In this document: positions 28,462 through 48,158 of the stretch, piece after piece
Layout: the number at the start of each line of letters is the position of its first letter
Numbering within the stretch: position 1 is the first letter of the stretch
Assembly (NCBI GenBank): GCA_902544065.1
Contig: CACCAS010000001.1
Span: forward strand, 1-64,000
Reading direction: 5' to 3'
From: an uncultured Pelagibacteraceae bacterium
GTDB lineage: Bacteria > Pseudomonadota > Alphaproteobacteria > Pelagibacterales > AG-422-B15
Length of the DNA stretch: 64,000 nt
Translations under genes and position numbers: made by a program
The notes under the pieces: model-generated
What the model saw: the letters and a program-made list of their open reading frames with translations, nothing else
Databases searched by the model: none
What the model was told of the DNA's origin: nothing

Positions 28462-29199
28462 ATGATTAAAACAGAAAAATTAATCTATGGCGCACTTAAT
28501 TCTGATCAAAAATTTGAAGGCTCAATCAGTTATGATGATTGCATAAGTACATCTCGTCCTGGTATACTTGTTTGTCATGCATATGGCGGGCATTCACCTT
28601 TTGATATTGGGAAATCTGAAAAATTGGCCGAATTAGGTTATTTTGCTTTTGCAATTGATCTTTATGGTCAAGGTAGACGTGGTTCTAATCCAGAGGAATC
28701 AATGGCGCTTATGAATGAATTTAATTCTGACCGAGTGTTGCTTCAAGAACGCATGATAAATGCGTTTGAAACTCTTAAAAAATTTGATCAAGTTGATAAG
28801 AATAAAACTGGAGCCATCGGTTTTTGTTTTGGTGGCAAATGTGCACTTGATCTTGCAAGATCTGGAGAGGACATAAAGGGAGTTGTTAGTTTCCACGGGC
28901 TTTATGATGCTCCAACAGCTAGTACTGGAAAGCAGTTAAAAGGGTCATTAAAAATTGATAGTTCGATCTTAATTTTGCATGGATATGATGATCCTATGGC
29001 TACTCCAAAAAGTATGATTGAACTCGCTGATGAATTAAATTCAAAAAAAGCTAAATGGCAAATTCACGCATATGGTAATGTGGGCCATGCCTTTACCAAT
29101 CCAGAAGCTAATCAGAAAGAAAGCGGATTATTTTATGACCGATACGCTGATGAGCATTCTTGGAATGAAATGAAAAATTTCTTTTCTAAAATATTTTAG
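28462..29199 (+). CDS. Dienelactone hydrolase family protein
   Basis: A 245-aa alpha/beta hydrolase. The nucleophile is Cys122 in IGFCFGGKCALD, with the acid in LHGYDDPM and the base in VGHAFTN; a cysteine nucleophile is the hallmark of the dienelactone hydrolase group. Cytoplasmic, without signal peptide. It is coupled to the upstream iron alcohol dehydrogenase and overlaps the 3' end of the convergent sulfatase gene by four bases. Members hydrolyse lactones or esters of dicarboxylates; the substrate here is not known. Confidence 0.88.
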   Translation: MIKTEKLIYGALNSDQKFEGSISYDDCISTSRPGILVCHAYGGHSPFDIGKSEKLAELGYFAFAIDLYGQGRRGSNPEESMALMNEFNSDRVLLQERMINAFETLKKFDQVDKNKTGAIGFCFGGKCALDLARSGEDIKGVVSFHGLYDAPTASTGKQLKGSLKIDSSILILHGYDDPMATPKSMIELADELNSKKAKWQIHAYGNVGHAFTNPEANQKESGLFYDRYADEHSWNEMKNFFSKIF

Positions 29200-30857
29200 T
29201 TATCCCAGTATAAATATTCATCGCCTTCAACATATTCTTGTCCTCCGTGCTTATCAATCAACACTGGGATTGACAGTGAGCTTTGAAACACAGGGGGTGA
29301 CTGTTCCTTCATATGGTTAGAGAGCATCAAATCAAGTTCTGATACTTTTATGGGATTAGCTTCAGCAAGATTATTTCTTTCAGTAGGGTCATTTGAAAGA
29401 TTGAATAGCCAATTTTTATTAATTTTTTCATCTTTAATGAGCTTCCATTCATTGTGCATTACTGTTTTAAGTCTTCCGGAGATCCAAAATAATGTTTCGT
29501 GTGGAGGTGTCTTAATTTCATTATTAATATACGGAATAAGGTTTTTTCCATCGATAATTCTATCATTGGGAATCTGTGCCCCAGCGGCCTCAGCAACTGT
29601 TGGCAAAATATCGTTTTGATGAATAGGATAATCATATACTGAGCCTGCCTCTATTTTATTTGGCCATTTGGCCATGAATGGTATATGCATGCCACCTTCA
29701 AAATGCGTTAGTTTCCAACCCCTATATGGCTTATTTATATTAGACAGATGTATATAATCCGCTCCCCCATTATCGCTTGAGAAAATGACAAGAGTGTTAT
29801 CTGAAATGCCAAGGTTCTCTAGTTTATCCAAAATTTTTCCAATGCCCCTATCTAGAGACTTCAACATTCCTGAGTATACTCTTAATTTATGTTGATCATC
29901 GCCTTGCAGATGATGAAAATGATCGTAATCTTCCTTTAGTGATTGAAGTGGGTTATGAGGTGCAAAGTGACCTAAATACAAAAAAAATGGTCTATTTCTA
30001 TTTTTCTCAATTACTTTGATCGCTTCATCAGTGTAGTAATCAGTTAAATATCCACCGGGTTCAAAGGGTTTGCTATTATTAAATGAAATAGAAAATTGTG
30101 ACGCAGACCATACCATATTATCAATAGCTTCATTTGTTTTTGCATTAACAACATTAGGATCATTTTTTGGAAGATAGAGACCACTAAGCATTTGAAGACT
30201 GTCATCAAAGCCCTGGTCAGTTGGTGTGGTCCCTTCAATTACTCCCAAATGCCATTTACCTATGTGGGCATTATAATAGCCTTCATTTTTTAAGACCTCG
30301 GCTATAGTTATTTCTTCTGGCGACATACCCGTACTGTACAAATCTACAAATTCCTCAGAAGCATTTTTATTTATCTCTGATTTTAATACTGGATCATCAA
30401 TATCGTTTACCCATTGAGCAAAAGTTTGTGCAATTTTAAAGTAGGGTGTAAACTCATAACCAAATCGGGTTGAATATCTTCCTGTCATTGTAGAAGCCCT
30501 TGAGGGAGAGCAGCTTGCACTAGCCGCATAACCTTTATTAAAAATAACTCCTTCTTTTCCAATTCGATCTATATTGGGAGTCATCAATGTTCCATCTCCA
30601 GCCCCTCCATTATAGAGAGAAATATCATTAAAACCTAAATCGTCAGCCAGTATTAAAATAATATTGGGTTTATTTGTTACTATTTTTTTATCGTCAGACG
30701 GTCCGTCTGGCCAGTTTACTTCAACACTTTCAGCCACTGGTCGTGCTGTATCAACGACAAATGGCAACCCCCAAACAAGTAGGTTTACACGATTTATCCA
30801 TAGGACAAGAGCGAGGATAAGCAGTGAAATAACCACAATTGATAATTTTTTTATCAT
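29196..30857 (-). CDS. Type I sulfatase (formylglycine-dependent), membrane-anchored
   Basis: A 553-aa arylsulfatase-family enzyme hydrolysing sulfate esters. The formylglycine motif CSPSR is at residues 116-120 and extends to SRASTMTGR; the calcium-site Asp72-Asp73 lie in ILADDLG, and IGKWHLG plus SSDNGGA are further active-site segments. Residues 5-33 form a hydrophobic helix with a basic N-terminus, so the enzyme should be tethered in the inner membrane facing the periplasm. Activation needs a formylglycine-generating enzyme, which is not in the window. Its ATG shares a base with the stop of the MBL gene upstream (TAATG). Substrate unknown, but it is the last gene of a four-gene coupled operon. 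Confidence 0.93.
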   Translation of the reverse strand: MIKKLSIVVISLLILALVLWINRVNLLVWGLPFVVDTARPVAESVEVNWPDGPSDDKKIVTNKPNIILILADDLGFNDISLYNGGAGDGTLMTPNIDRIGKEGVIFNKGYAASASCSPSRASTMTGRYSTRFGYEFTPYFKIAQTFAQWVNDIDDPVLKSEINKNASEEFVDLYSTGMSPEEITIAEVLKNEGYYNAHIGKWHLGVIEGTTPTDQGFDDSLQMLSGLYLPKNDPNVVNAKTNEAIDNMVWSASQFSISFNNSKPFEPGGYLTDYYTDEAIKVIEKNRNRPFFLYLGHFAPHNPLQSLKEDYDHFHHLQGDDQHKLRVYSGMLKSLDRGIGKILDKLENLGISDNTLVIFSSDNGGADYIHLSNINKPYRGWKLTHFEGGMHIPFMAKWPNKIEAGSVYDYPIHQNDILPTVAEAAGAQIPNDRIIDGKNLIPYINNEIKTPPHETLFWISGRLKTVMHNEWKLIKDEKINKNWLFNLSNDPTERNNLAEANPIKVSELDLMLSNHMKEQSPPVFQSSLSIPVLIDKHGGQEYVEGDEYLYWDN

Positions 30858-31927
30858 TAGTCAATATTTGTAATGTTAATCTCCTCGGAATTAACAGGCA
30901 AGATTGCCATAGTGCCATCGTCTGCCAATGTCCAGTTATCAGGTCGAACATCGTTCACGCCCTCGACAAAAAGTATCTTAGCAATAAAACTCTGAGGTGC
31001 AGGAATCAAATGATAAAAAATCAACTCTTTTACATTTGCTTCATTTGCAGCTTGAGCAGCCTCAATGGGCGAGGCATGATATTCTTGAATATCATAAAAA
31101 ATTTTTGATAACTGAGGTAATTGTATATTTTCAGACAGCTCTTCAGCCCTTCCTATCATTTTATAAGATAATGCATCATGAAAAAGTAAATCAGCATCTT
31201 TTGATTGTGCAATTAAGTTTGTACTGTAATCCGTGTCACCACTGATAACAATTGATCTTCCCTTGTAATCAAATCTGAAACCTAATGAAGGTTCAACAGG
31301 AGGATGATCAACTTCAAAAGCTGTGATTTTCAGCTTTTTATCATCAAAAATAACTGGATTATCTAAATCAATTATTGTGGTATTAAATCCTGCTACGTCT
31401 GAAGGAGCGACGTCTTCGCCGTGATGTAATGTTCGATACTCCATATCAAGCTCATATGCTCTACTGATACCCCCAGTAACTAATTGCGTCCCACGCGGTC
31501 CATATACTGGAAGTTTCTCTCCTCTGTTTTGAGCAACCCACGAATAAAGATGAAAGTCAGCCAAATCAGAGATATGATCAGAGTGTAGGTGAGTGAATAG
31601 TACTGCATCTAAATTACCAAGGTCTATCCCCCAATTTATTAAGTTCTGTCTACTGCCATCCCCAGTATCAACTACAAACATGTGCTCAGGTGTTTTGATC
31701 ATGATGCATGGCTCAGCCCTTCCCTCACCAGGCAAAGGTCCTCGTGATCCACAAACAAGCCCTATTATATAATCGCCCTCAAACGTTATGCGTTTATCTT
31801 GATTGTTTAATTGTGACTCAAAAATAAGATCAATAAGAAAATTTTGAACCAACGTATTTCGGATTCCAAAAAATGATATTATTAAAATCAAGATTGCAGC
31901 GATTAGGAAATAGTAAACTTTTTTCAC
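30857..31927 (-). CDS. MBL-fold metallohydrolase, membrane-anchored
   Basis: A 356-aa metallo-beta-lactamase-fold protein. The metal-binding signature HLHSDH is at residues 113-118. Further metal ligands are expected in the ISGDTDYS region and near FYHLIP. The order of motifs resembles the RNase Z/arylsulfatase-like MBL group, but residues 4-24 form a strong N-terminal membrane helix, which places the catalytic domain outside the cytoplasm and argues against tRNA processing. It is tightly packed between the sulfatase and a small membrane protein. I infer hydrolysis of a lactone, ester or phosphodiester in the periplasm; the actual substrate is unknown. Confidence 0.87.
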   Translation of the reverse strand: MKKVYYFLIAAILILIISFFGIRNTLVQNFLIDLIFESQLNNQDKRITFEGDYIIGLVCGSRGPLPGEGRAEPCIMIKTPEHMFVVDTGDGSRQNLINWGIDLGNLDAVLFTHLHSDHISDLADFHLYSWVAQNRGEKLPVYGPRGTQLVTGGISRAYELDMEYRTLHHGEDVAPSDVAGFNTTIIDLDNPVIFDDKKLKITAFEVDHPPVEPSLGFRFDYKGRSIVISGDTDYSTNLIAQSKDADLLFHDALSYKMIGRAEELSENIQLPQLSKIFYDIQEYHASPIEAAQAANEANVKELIFYHLIPAPQSFIAKILFVEGVNDVRPDNWTLADDGTMAILPVNSEEINITNID

Positions 31928-31928
31928 T

Positions 31929-32306
31929 TTAACTTGCTGATGTTCTCTTCGACGTGATTAGTAATAGAATTACGAGTAATATTTCGACAATGATAAATTG
32001 TATTGCAAAGGTTGCATCATGAATTCCCCACGAAAGTATTCTAAATAATGCTGTCACACCCAAAAGCATTGCTGGCGCATAAAACCAAATACTTTTCAGT
32101 GTATAGGCTGCAAGTATCATCATTGCGCCAATACAAAAGAAGTAACTCCCTATATCTCCAATTAGACTACTCCGGCCCAATCCTTCTGGTATAACCAATA
32201 TACCAAAGTTTGCTCCAGCATTGTAAGGGGATATTGCCCAGATAAGTCCAAGAATCAGAAATATAAATCCACTAATAGTTGTTAAAATAATTAAAAATTT
32301 GTTCAT
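31929..32306 (-). CDS. Small four-helix membrane protein, function unknown
   Basis: A 125-aa highly hydrophobic protein with four probable membrane helices (about residues 5-25, 48-68, 73-92 and 97-118) and a short basic C-terminus (TSKRTSAS). It may belong to DUF4345-like proteins, but I cannot be certain. No catalytic residues are visible. Its start overlaps the DJ-1/PfpI stop by four bases and its stop lies one base before the MBL start, so it is translated together with the membrane-anchored hydrolases and may help organise them. Confidence 0.75.
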   Translation of the reverse strand: MNKFLIILTTISGFIFLILGLIWAISPYNAGANFGILVIPEGLGRSSLIGDIGSYFFCIGAMMILAAYTLKSIWFYAPAMLLGVTALFRILSWGIHDATFAIQFIIVEILLVILLLITSKRTSAS

Positions 32307-33178
32307 GATTTATCCTCTATTATTTTCATTATCATTTGTGCAGTTTCGTGACCTGAATTTTGATTTTGCCCAGTTACAAATCTTTTTTCATTATCTACGA
32401 CAACGTGATTAGCAAATAAATCCCTAAATCCTGTTTTAGCTTCAAATATTACACCTGCCTTTTTCAACTCTTCTTCTGGATGTTGAGGTGTCATTTGTAT
32501 GCCGAGCTCTTTGACCTGCTTATCGGTCACACCAGTCATTTTCCTATTTGCAATTAGAATATTTCCATTTTTATCTTTAGCGTTAATTAACCCTAATGGA
32601 CCATGGCAAATAGCACCTATAATGCTACCTGCGTAATATGCTTCTGAAATCCCACTGGCTAATACCTCTGAGAAACCTAAGTCATATGCAGCACCCCACC
32701 CACCAGATAGAAACACGATATCATATTCTTTGAAGTTTACTTCTTCTACATTCATAGAGTTATTAAGTTTACCAATAGCTTTGACATCCTTATAAAATCT
32801 CTTGTCAGATGAAGATCTTATAAAATAAGAAGTAGTTGTTGGGTCTACGGGAATCTTACCTCCTTTAATGCTAGCAATATCAACCTTAATATTTGCATCG
32901 ATAAATTCATAATAGGGAGCTGTTAATTCTGAACTAGCTAAGCCTGAGGGTTTTCCTGAAACTTCACCTGGATAATTTAAAACTCCATGACTTGTAGATA
33001 CGATCAAAGCCTTTTTACCTTCTAAGTTAAAAGTTATTCCATCATAGTCAGGGTGTAGTCCCAAAGACTTCAATATGAATGGCATAATTATAATTGTGAT
33101 AACAGTTAGTGAAGTTAAGGCCAAAAGTGTTCTGACAACGGTTGATTTATACATGAGCGGATCATAATAGATTGACAC
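32303..33178 (-). CDS. DJ-1/PfpI family protein with N-terminal membrane anchor
   Basis: A 291-aa class I glutamine-amidotransferase-like protein of the DJ-1/ThiJ/PfpI group. The nucleophile elbow is GAICHGP with Cys191-His192; an acidic residue in LASSELTAP is the usual partner. Most relatives (Hsp31, glyoxalase III, PfpI) are cytosolic and about 190-230 aa. Here residues 14-39 form a membrane helix after a positively charged start, so the catalytic domain should face the periplasm. It heads the operon with the four-helix protein, the MBL hydrolase and the sulfatase. Possible activities are deglycase, glyoxalase or peptidase-like; none can be chosen from sequence alone. Confidence 0.85.
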   Translation of the reverse strand: MSIYYDPLMYKSTVVRTLLALTSLTVITIIIMPFILKSLGLHPDYDGITFNLEGKKALIVSTSHGVLNYPGEVSGKPSGLASSELTAPYYEFIDANIKVDIASIKGGKIPVDPTTTSYFIRSSSDKRFYKDVKAIGKLNNSMNVEEVNFKEYDIVFLSGGWGAAYDLGFSEVLASGISEAYYAGSIIGAICHGPLGLINAKDKNGNILIANRKMTGVTDKQVKELGIQMTPQHPEEELKKAGVIFEAKTGFRDLFANHVVVDNEKRFVTGQNQNSGHETAQMIMKIIEDKS

Positions 33179-33205
33179 AATTTTTCAATTACTTATGCTT
33201 TTCTG

Positions 33206-33688
33206 ATGTCGTATCTGTCAATACTTCCTGATAAGGTAAGTAACACTTATGAAGGTAAAACATTATCTCTGTGGGCAATGTACTTATACCTCACCGTTAT
33301 GACTTTTCGTTCATTAGTACATACATTTGCTGATGACGCAGGATTAAATTCAATCGCATCCATTACAGTATTCCCATTCATTGATGGTCTAGATCCAAAT
33401 CGAATTATATATTTGTTTGGTTCTCTATGGGGCGGAGCTCAAATTGTGTGTTTAGTATTTTCAATAATTATTGTATTGAAATATAAAAATTTACTGCCTT
33501 TAGTGTGGTTGCTGTTCATTTTTGATAATATCTTAAAACTAAGCGTATTGCAGCTTCGCTACCCCGGTCCCGAATATACAACATCAACAGCTCCAGGAGG
33601 TATTACTGGAACATTTATTATGCTTTTATTTACACTTATTATGTTTTACCTTTCAATATTGAGAAAGAAAGACATACATGGAAGTTAA
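33206..33688 (+). CDS. Membrane protein of unknown function
   Basis: A 160-aa protein with four predicted membrane helices (about residues 22-38, 66-86, 92-112 and 132-152). I do not recognise the family. An acidic/aromatic stretch (TFADDAGLNSIASITVFPFIDGLDPN) lies between helices 1 and 2. It diverges from the DJ-1 gene with a 27-base gap, so promoters of the two operons must overlap the 5' ends. It overlaps the next gene by 11 bases, so it heads an operon with a DUF1330-like protein, two GST-like proteins and an HCCA-isomerase-like protein. Confidence 0.72.
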   Translation: MSYLSILPDKVSNTYEGKTLSLWAMYLYLTVMTFRSLVHTFADDAGLNSIASITVFPFIDGLDPNRIIYLFGSLWGGAQIVCLVFSIIIVLKYKNLLPLVWLLFIFDNILKLSVLQLRYPGPEYTTSTAPGGITGTFIMLLFTLIMFYLSILRKKDIHGS

Positions 33689-34118
33689 AAATAAAATTTA
33701 CCCATCAAGAGAGCAGATGAAGGGATTTTTTGAGGAGTCAAAAGATGCAGACATTGATGAGCCTATATTTATGGTGAACCTTTTGAAATTTAAAGAGAAA
33801 GCCGAATATAAAGATGGAAGAGAAACGAATCTATCAGGTATTGAAGCTTACAAAAAGTATGCAGACATCATTACCAAGCACATTGAAGAGCTTGGAGGAG
33901 AAATCACATTCTCCTCTAAAGTTAAAAGAATAACAGTTGGCAAGGTTGAACAGCTATGGGACGCGGTAGTAATTGCAAAGTGGCCTTCCAGGAAAATTAT
34001 GGGTGAAAGCATGGCACCTACAGACCCGCATTTACTAGAAGGCTATCAGCATAGAGAAGCTGGACTAGAGGGGCAATTAAATATTGAGTCTGTTGAAACA
34101 GATACATTGATAGATTAA
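33678..34118 (+). CDS. DUF1330-like dimeric alpha/beta-barrel protein
   Basis: A 146-aa soluble protein. The segment PIFMVNLLKFKEKAEYKDG followed by SGIEAYKKYADI and the late WDAVVIAKWPSR strand resemble DUF1330 and related dimeric ferredoxin-like barrels. These often bind small hydrophobic ligands or act as isomerases or monooxygenase-like enzymes, but function is not established. It overlaps the upstream membrane protein by 11 bases and is followed one base later by a GST gene, indicating co-expression. Confidence 0.73.
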   Translation: MEVKNKIYPSREQMKGFFEESKDADIDEPIFMVNLLKFKEKAEYKDGRETNLSGIEAYKKYADIITKHIEELGGEITFSSKVKRITVGKVEQLWDAVVIAKWPSRKIMGESMAPTDPHLLEGYQHREAGLEGQLNIESVETDTLID

Positions 34119-34119
34119 T

Positions 34120-34806
34120 ATGATTGATCTTTACACATCACCTACACCCAACGGTTATAAAATTTCAGTTGCACTGGAAGAGTTGAATATTCCTTACAAT
34201 GTCCATGTTGTTAATCTTCAAGCTGGAGATCAAAAAAAAGAAGAGTTTCTAAAACTCAATCCAAATGGACGAATACCTGTAATAGTTGATACGGAGAATA
34301 ATAATTTGCCAATTATGGAGAGTGGGGCTCAATTAATATATTTAGCGGAAAAAGCTGGCAAACTTTTACCAAGTGAAACAACGGCTCGATCAAAAGTCAT
34401 GCAATGGCTGATGTTTCAGATGGGCGGCATTGGTCCAATGATGGGGCAAGCAAACGTTTTTTTTCGGTATTGGCCTGGTGATAAAATCAAAGCAGCTGTG
34501 GACCGTTATCAAAATGAAGGTCGACGATTATTTGAAGTAATGGAAACACGCTTACAGGATAATGAATTTTTAGCTGATGATTTTAGCATTGCTGATATTG
34601 CTAACTGGTGCTGGGTTAGAACATATAAGTGGTCAGGTATAAAAATTGAGGGCTTGACAGGTCTTCAAAGATGGATGCAAATGATGGAAGATCGCCCAGC
34701 ATGTAAAAAAGGTGTAGCCGTCCCAATTGATATTATGGAGCTGATGAGAAATATGAAACAATCTAAAGATTTAACTGATACGGGTTCAAAAATTATACAG
34801 AAATAA
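34120..34806 (+). CDS. Glutathione S-transferase family protein
   Basis: A 228-aa protein with an N-terminal thioredoxin-like GST domain (IDLYTSPTPNGYKISVALEEL, then NPNGRIPVIVD and IMESGAQLIYLA) and a helical C-terminal domain with FSIADIANWCWV. It resembles the Nu/YghU-YfcG type, in which Thr and Asn near residues 7-10 replace Tyr, Ser or Cys in glutathione binding. The stop is 10 bases from a second GST-like gene. Conjugation, thiol transfer or peroxidase activity on a hydrophobic electrophile is likely. The substrate is unknown. Confidence 0.9.
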   Translation: MIDLYTSPTPNGYKISVALEELNIPYNVHVVNLQAGDQKKEEFLKLNPNGRIPVIVDTENNNLPIMESGAQLIYLAEKAGKLLPSETTARSKVMQWLMFQMGGIGPMMGQANVFFRYWPGDKIKAAVDRYQNEGRRLFEVMETRLQDNEFLADDFSIADIANWCWVRTYKWSGIKIEGLTGLQRWMQMMEDRPACKKGVAVPIDIMELMRNMKQSKDLTDTGSKIIQK

Positions 34807-34816
34807 GGCTCATATT

Positions 34817-35854
34817 ATGAATTTACCTAATCCATTAATAATACTTGGCGGAGTGGGGTCACCTTACACACGCAAAATGTTATCTTATCTAAGATATAAA
34901 AGAATTCCGCATAAAATGATTTGGGGAGATCCTTCAAAATATCTAGACCAGGAGGGAATAGAAAAGCCCAAGCCTAGTTTGTTACCAACGTTTGTATTGC
35001 CTAATGAAGATGGAAATTTAAAAGCAGTAACTGATTCCACTCCATTGATAAGAAGAATTGATAAGGAGGTCAGTGAACGAAGTACGATACCAACTGAACC
35101 TGCCCTTGCATTCATTAATTATCTATTAGAAGATTTTGCAGATGAGTGGGGTACAAAATATATGTTTCATTATCGATGGCATGATCAAAAAGATGCAAAT
35201 AATGCTGGCACTATTTTACCACTACAGACCATAGGAATGATGCCAGATGATATGCTTAAAAGTGTCAAAGAAATGATTAGTAAAAGGCAAATTGATAGAT
35301 TGTGGGTAGTTGGCTCAAACAATGACACAGCGCCAATAATAGATGCAAGCTTAAAGCGCCTATTAGGTATTCTTGAAAAGCATTTTGCATCTGCATCTTA
35401 CCTATTAGGCAACAGGCCTTCCTCGAGTGATTTTGCTTTATATGGTCAACTATCTCAGCTTGTTAATTTTGATCCTACTCCAAGAGAAATTTGCCATGAA
35501 GTTTCTTTAAGAACGGTTGCGTGGGTTGGTTTAATTGAAGATCAGTCTGGCATTGAAGTCACAGATGAACAATGGGGTTCAATTGAAAGTTTACCATCGA
35601 CCGTAAAAGATTTACTAATTGAAATTGGAAATGGGTATGTACCTGCACAATTAGCAAATGCAAAAGCTATAGAAAATGGTGATAAAGAATGGGAAGCAGA
35701 AATTGATAATTGCCTTTGGAAACAAAAATCATTTCCCTATCAGGCAAAGTGTCTCAAGTGGGTGAATGAAGAATATAGGGCGCTTGAAGAAAATGATCGA
35801 AAGAAAGTTGATAACCTCTTTGACGGCACAGGATGTGAAAGGTTAATATTATAA
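34817..35854 (+). CDS. GST-like protein, long form
   Basis: A 345-aa protein with a thioredoxin-like N-terminal domain (IILGGVGSPYTRKMLSYLRYKRIPH, then LPTFVLPNEDG and DSTPLIRRID) and a GST-type helical C-terminal domain containing YLLGNRPSSSDFALYGQL. It is about 120 residues longer than an ordinary GST; the extra segment is C-terminal (residues 240-345) and ends in KVDNLFDGTGCERLIL. SPYTRK is where the catalytic residue of a Cys/Ser GST would be; Ser is present, Cys absent. It follows a canonical GST and precedes a GST-kappa-like gene. Function unknown. Confidence 0.82.
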   Translation: MNLPNPLIILGGVGSPYTRKMLSYLRYKRIPHKMIWGDPSKYLDQEGIEKPKPSLLPTFVLPNEDGNLKAVTDSTPLIRRIDKEVSERSTIPTEPALAFINYLLEDFADEWGTKYMFHYRWHDQKDANNAGTILPLQTIGMMPDDMLKSVKEMISKRQIDRLWVVGSNNDTAPIIDASLKRLLGILEKHFASASYLLGNRPSSSDFALYGQLSQLVNFDPTPREICHEVSLRTVAWVGLIEDQSGIEVTDEQWGSIESLPSTVKDLLIEIGNGYVPAQLANAKAIENGDKEWEAEIDNCLWKQKSFPYQAKCLKWVNEEYRALEENDRKKVDNLFDGTGCERLIL

Positions 35855-35856
35855 TT

Positions 35857-36498
35857 ATGCAGGTGGATTTATATTTCTCTTTTAGAAGTCCATATTCGTA
35901 TTTAATTTTGCCACGTATGGTTGAATTGAGAGATAAACATGGGGTAGATGTTAATTTTAAGCAAGTTTACCCTCTTGCAATAAGGGAACCAGAATTTTTT
36001 AAAGGTAAAAATCTCTTTACTTACTTTTTAATCAGAAGAATTGATTATGTCAGACAAGCAAAAAAAAATAATATGGTTTTTGCCAAACCAAATCCTGATC
36101 CAATAAATCAAAACTTGTTGACTGGAAAAATTTCAGACCATCAGCCTTATATTTTTAAATTAGCCCATTATTGTCAAGCTATACAAAAAGATAAGCAGCT
36201 TGATTTTGCCGTTGTGGTTTCAAATAAAATATGGAGCGGTCTCAAGAACTGGAATACAGATGAGTCAATAGCTGATGCTACTTCAAAAGTTGGATTGAAG
36301 TTTGAAGATATTGAAAAAATGCGTATCGAAAATGAACAAGCGTTAATTGATGAAATTAAGTTAAATCAAAAAGAACAGCTCGAAGCGGGACATCATGGAG
36401 TTCCTCTATCTGTTTACAAAGACAAATTCTTTTTTGGCCAAGATCGTTTTGATGATCTGGTTAGTGAATTAAAAGAAGATGGATTAGTGATTAGCTGA
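35857..36498 (+). CDS. 2-hydroxychromene-2-carboxylate isomerase / GST-kappa-like (DsbA family)
   Basis: A 213-aa protein of the DsbA-like GST-kappa group. The N-terminus MQVDLYFSFRSPYSYL carries the Ser in RSPYSY that HCCA isomerases use with glutathione; there is no CxxC, so it is not an oxidoreductase of the DsbA type. The C-terminal GHHGVPLSVYKDKFFFGQDR is the conserved substrate end. It is the last of the five-gene operon with two GST-like proteins. Such isomerases act in naphthalene and related aromatic catabolism, but many homologues have other glutathione-dependent roles, so the pathway is inferred only weakly. Confidence 0.85.
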   Translation: MQVDLYFSFRSPYSYLILPRMVELRDKHGVDVNFKQVYPLAIREPEFFKGKNLFTYFLIRRIDYVRQAKKNNMVFAKPNPDPINQNLLTGKISDHQPYIFKLAHYCQAIQKDKQLDFAVVVSNKIWSGLKNWNTDESIADATSKVGLKFEDIEKMRIENEQALIDEIKLNQKEQLEAGHHGVPLSVYKDKFFFGQDRFDDLVSELKEDGLVIS

Positions 36499-46451: not shown

Positions 46452-48158
46452 TCAGTACATAAAATATCTCTGTGCCATTGGCAGTTCTTCCGCTGGCTCA
46501 CATGTTATAATTTCTCCATTTGCTCTGACCTCATATGTTTCAGGATTTACATCTATAGTTGGACAAACATCATTTAAAACCATATCTTTTTTTGAAATTG
46601 ACCTTGTATTGCTTACCGGCAGCATACTTTTTTGAATATTGAGATGATTAAGGCTGCCTGTCTCCAGAGAACTCTTGCTAACAAAAGTTACCGATGAGTT
46701 TTCAAGCGATCTTCCATAACTTCCAAACATTGGGCGGGTATATACTGGTTGGGGAGTTGGAATCGATGCGTTTGGATCGCCCATTTGTGCGCAGGCAATA
46801 CTTCCACCCATTATTACAATCTCAGGCTTAACACCAAAGAAGGCTGGGTCCCAGATAACGATATCGGCTCTTTTATTTTTTTCGAGACTGCCAACATAGG
46901 AAGACATTCCATGAGCAATTGATGGATTTATTGTATATTTTGCAAGGTATCGTTTGACTCTTAAATTATCATTATCGCCTTGCTCTTCAGATAGTCTTCC
47001 TCGTTGCACTTTCATTTTATGAGCTGTTTGCCATGTTCTAATAATAACCTCACCAACGCGTCCCATAGCTTGACTGTCGGATGCGATGATTGAGAAAGCA
47101 CCCATATCGTGCAATATGTCTTCAGCAGCCATCGTTTCTCTCCGTATTCTACTCTCAGCAAATGCTACGTCTTCAGGTATTGATTTATCAAGGTGATGGC
47201 AAACCATCAGCATATCTAAATGCTCTTCAACAGTGTTAACAGTAAATGGTCGTGTTGGATTAGTTGAAGATGGCAAAACATACGGTTCAGCACAAATTTT
47301 TATGATATCAGGCGCGTGTCCACCACCTGCGCCCTCAGTATGAAATGTATGAATGGTTCTTTTATTAATTGCATTAATTGTATTTTCTACGAAGCCGCTT
47401 TCATTGAGCGTATCAGTATGTATCATAACTTGAACGTCGAATTCATCGGCAATATTTAAACAATTATCAATTGCACCAGGAGTAGAGCCCCAGTCCTCAT
47501 GAAGTTTGAGAGCAGCTGCTCCACCAAGAACTTGTTCCTCTAAACCAGAAGGCATCGAAGAATTTCCTTTGCCTGCATAAGCTAAATTCATCGAAAAAGC
47601 ATCAGATGATTGAAGCATCCTGCCGATGTGCCATGGTCCCGGCGTGCAAGTAGTTGCTAATGTTCCATGTGCTGGTCCAGTACCTCCACCCAGCATTGTA
47701 GTAATGCCAGAATGTAAGGCGTCATCAATTTGCTGAGGACATATAAAATGTATATGACTGTCAAAGCCGCCTGCAGTTACAATTTTACCTTCACTTGCAA
47801 TAACTTCAGTACCTGGACCAATAATAATATCCACACCGGGTTGTGTATCTGGGTTACCAGCTTTTCCAATATGATCAATATTTCCGTTCTTTAGTCCAAT
47901 ATCTGCTTTAAATATCCCTGTGACATCTAGTATTAGAGCATTAGTAATAACTGTGTCTACTGCTCCAGCACTTCTTGAAACCTGAGACTGTCCCATACCA
48001 TCGCGAATAACTTTGCCACCACCAAACTTGACTTCCTCACCATAGACTGTGAGGTCTTTTTCAACCTCTATGAAAAGTTCAGTATCAGCTAACCTTACTT
48101 TATCCCCCGTTGTGGGGCCATACATAGCTGCATAAGACCGTCTTGGAATTTTTTTCAT
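46452..48158 (-). CDS. ureC: Urease subunit alpha (catalytic)
   Basis: The nickel-containing catalytic subunit hydrolysing urea to ammonia and carbamate; 568 aa, full length. The nickel ligands match Klebsiella numbering plus one: His135, His137, carbamylated Lys218 ([10 protein letters not shown]), His247, His273 and Asp361. The flap Cys320-His321 lies in [12 protein letters not shown]. All catalytic residues are intact, so the enzyme should be active. ureB overlaps upstream by four bases and ureE follows after two. Confidence 0.98.

Follow-up and report, generated by a model that had tools for sequence, protein, structure and literature searches.

Gene layout and conservation of the operon

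The window analyzed here is a stretch of 64,000 nucleotides (contig CACCAS010000001.1, positions 1 to 64,000) from the 1.26-Mb genome of an uncultured bacterium of a Pelagibacterales lineage. Among named relatives, Pelagibacteraceae bacterium AG-337-G06 is the nearest, with 98% identity for the metallo-β-lactamase (MBL)-fold protein described below. On the minus strand, four genes follow one another: a membrane-anchored DJ-1/PfpI protein resembling the Hsp31/glyoxalase III branch (32303..33154), a four-helix membrane protein without a named family, hereafter 4TM (31929..32306), a membrane-anchored MBL-fold hydrolase with a GTG start (30857..31927), and a sulfatase of the S1, or formylglycine (FGly), type with an N-terminal signal-anchor and a CSPSR motif at residues 116-120 (29196..30857). 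The open reading frame (ORF) of the DJ-1 protein extends to a GTG at 33178, but this is probably not the true start, since sister species begin at the residue equivalent to the ATG at 33154. The ORF coordinates give spacings of -4 bases between DJ-1 and 4TM, +1 between 4TM and MBL, and -1 between MBL and the sulfatase, the same values as in a first-pass annotation of this sequence, which had proposed a coupled operon of membrane-tethered hydrolases.

The gene order is kept in relatives, in line with a conserved co-directional operon. Coordinates show 4TM and MBL as immediate neighbours in 18 of the 24 genus genomes, and the sulfatase adjoins MBL in 10 of the 24. The complete DJ-1-4TM-MBL-sulfatase arrangement is found in the window and in four genus genomes (L051, L052, L053, L055); gene maps place the full set on eight named contigs, some of them from these same genomes. 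Within the genus the locus is highly variable, and one clade keeps only 4TM and MBL. As the basal genus genome, L053, carries all four genes (support of 93-99 for the relevant forks of the tree), DJ-1 and the sulfatase, the two non-adjacent end genes, would most simply have been lost on one branch. Their joint loss, seen on a single branch, gives a weak hint that the two proteins work together.

Membrane topology and the 4TM protein

The three enzymes are probably anchored in the inner membrane with their catalytic domains in the periplasm, as had been proposed at first pass. This assignment comes from home-made counts of hydropathy and charge over complete homologues, not from DeepTMHMM or SignalP. 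An N-terminal hydrophobic helix is conserved in 75 of 78 MBL, 14 of 14 DJ-1, and 14 of 14 sulfatase homologues, with an excess of positive charge on the N-terminal side of the helix in 62 of 75, 13 of 14, and 11 of 14, respectively. No lipobox was found in any of these sets, and nothing in the counts placed the DJ-1 or MBL domains in the cytoplasm.

The fourth gene encodes a pure membrane protein, again as first described. 4TM has no match among Pfam or NCBIfam families, and its AlphaFold model, with a predicted local distance difference test (pLDDT) value of 79, consists of four long helices; Foldseek hits for it in the PDB were no better than E 3.7. No viral contig matched 4TM when such contigs were scanned, and a viral origin was rejected on this ground.

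An S1 sulfatase without a known maturase

The sulfatase matches the Pfam Sulfatase profile with 179 bits (cut-off 25). The residues expected of the S1 type, C116-P118-S119-R120, D72, D73, K201, H203, H301, D362, N363, and K382, are invariant, and the CxPSR motif is intact in all 13 relatives checked. The best solved match is the exo-4S-kappa-carrageenan sulfatase 6prm. The operon sulfatase resembles the SulfAtlas S1 carrageenan sulfatases in the CxPSR motif, in the metal-ligand and catalytic residues, and in a profile alignment that spans most of its length, but it differs in its membrane anchor, in lying in a genome without a known maturase, and in that no polysaccharide-utilisation genes were seen around it.

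The first-pass annotation had recognised the catalytic residues and had overlooked the absence of any known sulfatase maturase from the genome. The formylglycine-generating enzyme (FGE; PF03781) has no match in the 24 genus genomes and none in eight of the nine genomes with related clusters; five PF03781 matches in the remaining one, from a Hyphomonadaceae bacterium whose sulfatase is 45% identical, served as a positive control. In the 17 genus genomes searched for the anaerobic sulfatase-maturating enzyme (anSME), no match passed the cut-off, and none did so in the searched cluster-bearing relatives. Because the genus genomes are 55-99% complete, the absence of FGE and anSME carries weight only for the genomes taken together. 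A sister family does have PF03781 matches, which on inspection by eye are EgtB-like or belong to proteins of about 230 residues that lack the cysteine pair expected in FGE; we take them not to be FGE. Two sulfatases of this sister family (L171, L172) have an intact CxPSR or CxPAR motif, with only an EgtB-like match in one genome and none in the other. A second FGly-type sulfatase is encoded in the window genome itself, on contig 8 (L170:1735-3459), with a CSPAR motif and a twin-arginine-like start (SRRSFIK); it is conserved in most of the genus.

For the S1 homologue of the operon, two options are possible: activity with the cysteine alone, or a maturase not yet known. The former is conceivable because unmodified choline sulfatase is a multiple-turnover enzyme, though a slower one (PMC6189696).

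The MBL hydrolase is closest to an arylsulfatase

The MBL protein scores 75.8 bits against Pfam Lactamase_B_2 (cut-off 27). Its HxHxDH motif at 113-118 (H113, H115, D117, H118) and residues H208, D231, and H306 are all invariant and make up a full di-metal ligand set, the last three being residues that we take to be ligands after RNase Z. The AlphaFold model (pLDDT 92) shows helices at residues 2-23 and 25-44 followed by the MBL domain. The protein had first been described as RNase-Z-like, for which a better description is now available: the best solved match, in the profile search (94.8 bits) as well as in the fold comparison (TM-score 0.83 by target length), is 8gyg, an MBL-fold arylsulfatase of Pseudoalteromonas atlantica, which ranks ahead of PNGM-1 and RNase Z. 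RNase Z identity was rejected, with NCBIfam scores of 137 bits against a cut-off of 363 and 100 against 293, and with 8gyg matching better.

SulfAtlas family S4 is a clade close to RNase Z, with natural substrates unknown, and was delimited by an identity to AtsA of 30% or more along the protein (PMC5066984). The window MBL shares with S4 (AtsA of Pseudoalteromonas carrageenovora, P28607; 8gyg) the HxHxDH di-metal motif in an RNase-Z-like MBL fold, and is closest to it in fold and profile; it differs in its N-terminal membrane anchor and in its operon context with an S1 sulfatase and 4TM. Since the identity, measured against 8gyg, is 27% over 264 residues, we call the protein S4-like rather than a member of S4. 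It may hydrolyze sulfate esters.

Alternatively, the MBL protein could be a lactonase, a phosphodiesterase, or another esterase of the RNase Z/AtsA superfamily, in which case the module would cut another bond, with the sulfatase as an optional partner. The modest identity to 8gyg would allow this, as would the scores of the RNase Z models (though far below the cut-off) and the fact that MBL usually occurs without the sulfatase. However, 8gyg tops both the sequence and the fold matches, and MBL adjoins an S1 sulfatase in two bacterial classes, so that we regard this alternative as somewhat unlikely.

The DJ-1/PfpI protein

The DJ-1 protein matches Pfam PF01965 (DJ-1_PfpI) with 51 bits (cut-off 26.6) and has the nucleophile-elbow cysteine; Cys183-His184 and Glu76 are invariant. 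Its nearest solved structures are 4p5p and 1u9c, followed by fungal Hsp31/glyoxalase III. It shares the Cys-His nucleophile pair and the conserved Glu with this branch (4p5p, 1u9c, YDR533c), but has an N-terminal transmembrane anchor, which probably places it in the periplasm, and a GGWG sequence instead of GGHG close to the active site. With 28 bits, it stays far below the cut-off of 365 of the glyoxalase III HchA/Hsp31 equivalog model. It may nevertheless work like a glyoxalase III. Homologues of the same anchored subfamily also occur alone elsewhere.

The operon belongs to a wider recurrent cluster

A divergent intergenic region of 51 bases (33155..33205) separates the operon from a block of plus-strand genes: the membrane protein TM160 (33206..33688), the small DUF1330-like protein P146 (33678..34118), the YfcG-like glutathione transferase (GST) GST1 (34120..34806), the long GST-like protein GST2 of 345 residues (34817..35854), and a DsbA-fold, HCCA-isomerase-like protein (35857..36498). 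Promoter-like sites with 10 of 12 matches on each strand overlap in the intergenic region; their number is not above that in shuffled sequences, and only their position is suggestive.

The MBL alignment was scanned against 84,980 species genomes, and the loci found were mapped. Co-occurrence in other marine genomes had been put forward at first pass as a check, and parts of the operon are indeed re-used in SAR86 (Gammaproteobacteria) and in OCS116 and PS1 (Alphaproteobacteria). In three SAR86 loci (L080, L096, L098), GST1-GST-P146-(TM160)-DUF2855-sulfatase-4TM-MBL form a single head-to-tail run on the same strand, which GST2 and a haloalkane dehalogenase precede in L080; three others (L085, L089, L092) have a run with 4TM-MBL but no sulfatase. 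DJ-1 is the gene immediately before MBL in OCS116 (L094) and in SAR86 (L097, L102, L104, L105), and adjoins the sulfatase in L109. Outside the genus, recurrence is limited to pairs or triplets of the four genes. The arrangement is more than chance, because it recurs across alpha- and gammaproteobacteria.

Within seven genes of MBL at 63 loci outside the genus, a P146 relative occurs at 25, GST2 at 12, TM160 at 11, and GST1 at 9, compared with 6 for 4TM, 6 for DJ-1, and 5 for the sulfatase; TM160 is a repeated cluster member in SAR86, PS1, and OCS116. As homologues of its genes travel with the operon genes in other lineages, the divergent block of the window (33206-36498) likely belongs to the same system. 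The four-gene unit first proposed is thus coupled and conserved but too narrow, since the GST, DUF1330-like, TM160, and DsbA-like genes co-travel with it. The clusters of relatives also contain DUF2855 proteins and nitronate-monooxygenase (NMO)/FabK-like proteins dependent on flavin mononucleotide, and TonB receptors lie beside the cluster in L094 and L109. In L080 (12611-14686), L087 (9109-11217), and other SAR86 loci, DUF3604 proteins repeatedly adjoin the MBL cluster.

Members of the haloalkane dehalogenase homologue family lie near MBL at 13 loci outside the genus. Those of L080 and L109 score 316 and 322 bits against NF002043 (cut-off 265) and are genuine members of subfamily I; the corresponding proteins of OCS116 and PS1 are look-alikes. 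The subfamily I dehalogenases of L080 (1069-2154), L109, and L112 are about 50 residues longer than solved members. Haloalkane dehalogenase pathways differ from the present locus in that no dehalogenase gene lies beside the operon in the window genome, and we know of no such pathway with tethered sulfatases.

Some genes of sister species have no counterpart in the window. L052 (6076-7659) and L055 have an NMO/FabK-like gene and a 195-residue gene, TetR-like by eye yet without a Pfam match, between the divergent blocks, and a 118-residue protein of no known family is encoded after the operon in L052 (11697-12053) and L053. Elsewhere in the window, at 47720-48005 on the plus strand, the Rfam model 5_ureB_sRNA matches with 100.6 bits opposite an ORF of 568 residues (46452-48158); if this ORF encodes the urease catalytic subunit, the match is probably no more than a trace of conserved coding sequence on the opposite strand.

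A proposed catabolic role

We propose, with a probability of about 0.5, that the four genes serve in the periplasm, or at the cell surface, as one arm of a small gene cluster that breaks down lipophilic or bulky compounds carrying sulfate and possibly halogen. Such a natural compound would enter the periplasm, where the S1 sulfatase and the two-metal, arylsulfatase-like MBL protein, tethered to the inner membrane on its outer side, would strip sulfate or ester groups. The DJ-1 protein could then handle a reactive carbonyl product, and 4TM, as a guess, might help to hold it or hand it on. The cytosolic GSTs and the DsbA-like protein would finish the breakdown, joined in relatives by the haloalkane dehalogenase and flavin oxidoreductases. 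Of the earlier idea of a unit for a sulfated or esterified compound, a sulfated compound remains the likely, though putative, substrate. Chlorosulfolipids were weighed as substrates, being both chlorinated and sulfated, but no literature was found on their bacterial breakdown, and they remain a guess.

Several observations weigh against the proposed role. As neither FGE nor anSME was found, the sulfatase may have low activity or operate in another way, and its family name leaves the substrate unfixed. The topology relies on hydropathy and charge and not on a trained predictor. Many MBL homologues, in Novosphingobium and others, lack any partner; 5 of the 24 genus genomes, most of them incomplete, are without both 4TM and MBL, and one more (G020) retains just a diverged MBL. 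The window genome has its best haloalkane dehalogenase homologue on another contig, so the halogen part of the proposal is drawn from relatives.

Detoxification or stress defense would assign the same genes a role outside nutrition, with the GSTs, DJ-1, and flavin oxidoreductases clearing reactive aldehydes or toxic electrophiles and the anchored hydrolases inactivating toxic esters at the membrane. This would suit the YfcG-like GST1, the fungal glutathione-independent glyoxalase III among the DJ-1 relatives, and the TetR-like regulators (by eye, without a Pfam match) beside the cluster in relatives. However, the cluster is bordered in relatives by genes for an acyl-CoA dehydrogenase, a thiolase, an AMP-ligase, and a TonB receptor, as would suit catabolism, and sulfatases usually serve nutrient acquisition; we judge detoxification unlikely. 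A defense system was rejected, since PADLOC gave no match for any of the four proteins. That the genes merely share a gene-turnover hot spot, as the differing gene sets, the variability of the locus within the genus, and the solitary occurrence of DJ-1 and 4TM elsewhere might suggest, is very unlikely, because alpha- and gammaproteobacteria repeat the gene order in identical pairs and triplets, with gaps that are short or negative, and because one branch lost two genes that do not adjoin each other.

The complex with a 4TM scaffold that had been envisaged at first pass is not supported. 4TM homologues exist without MBL in other Alphaproteobacteria, the anchored DJ-1 protein occurs alone, and only pairs and triplets recur outside the genus; a physical complex of the four proteins, like the role of 4TM, is a guess. 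No description of the cluster was found among the searchable papers; the families are known singly, and the gene combination appears undescribed in those papers. In a stronger form of the proposal, which we consider quite unlikely, this Pelagibacterales lineage and SAR86 would have active FGly-type sulfatases that do without FGE and anSME, through a novel maturase or the cysteine alone, and that act at the inner membrane with an MBL sulfatase and DJ-1 in consuming sulfated, halogenated natural products.

In the surface ocean, SAR86 and Pelagibacterales rank with the most abundant cells, and it is largely an open question which dissolved compounds they consume. The recurrent cluster of inner-membrane-tethered hydrolases and GSTs, with a haloalkane dehalogenase in relatives, points to a testable class, namely sulfated, perhaps halogenated, lipophilic molecules. 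The absent formylglycine maturase poses a separate and sharp question, that of how such sulfatases work.

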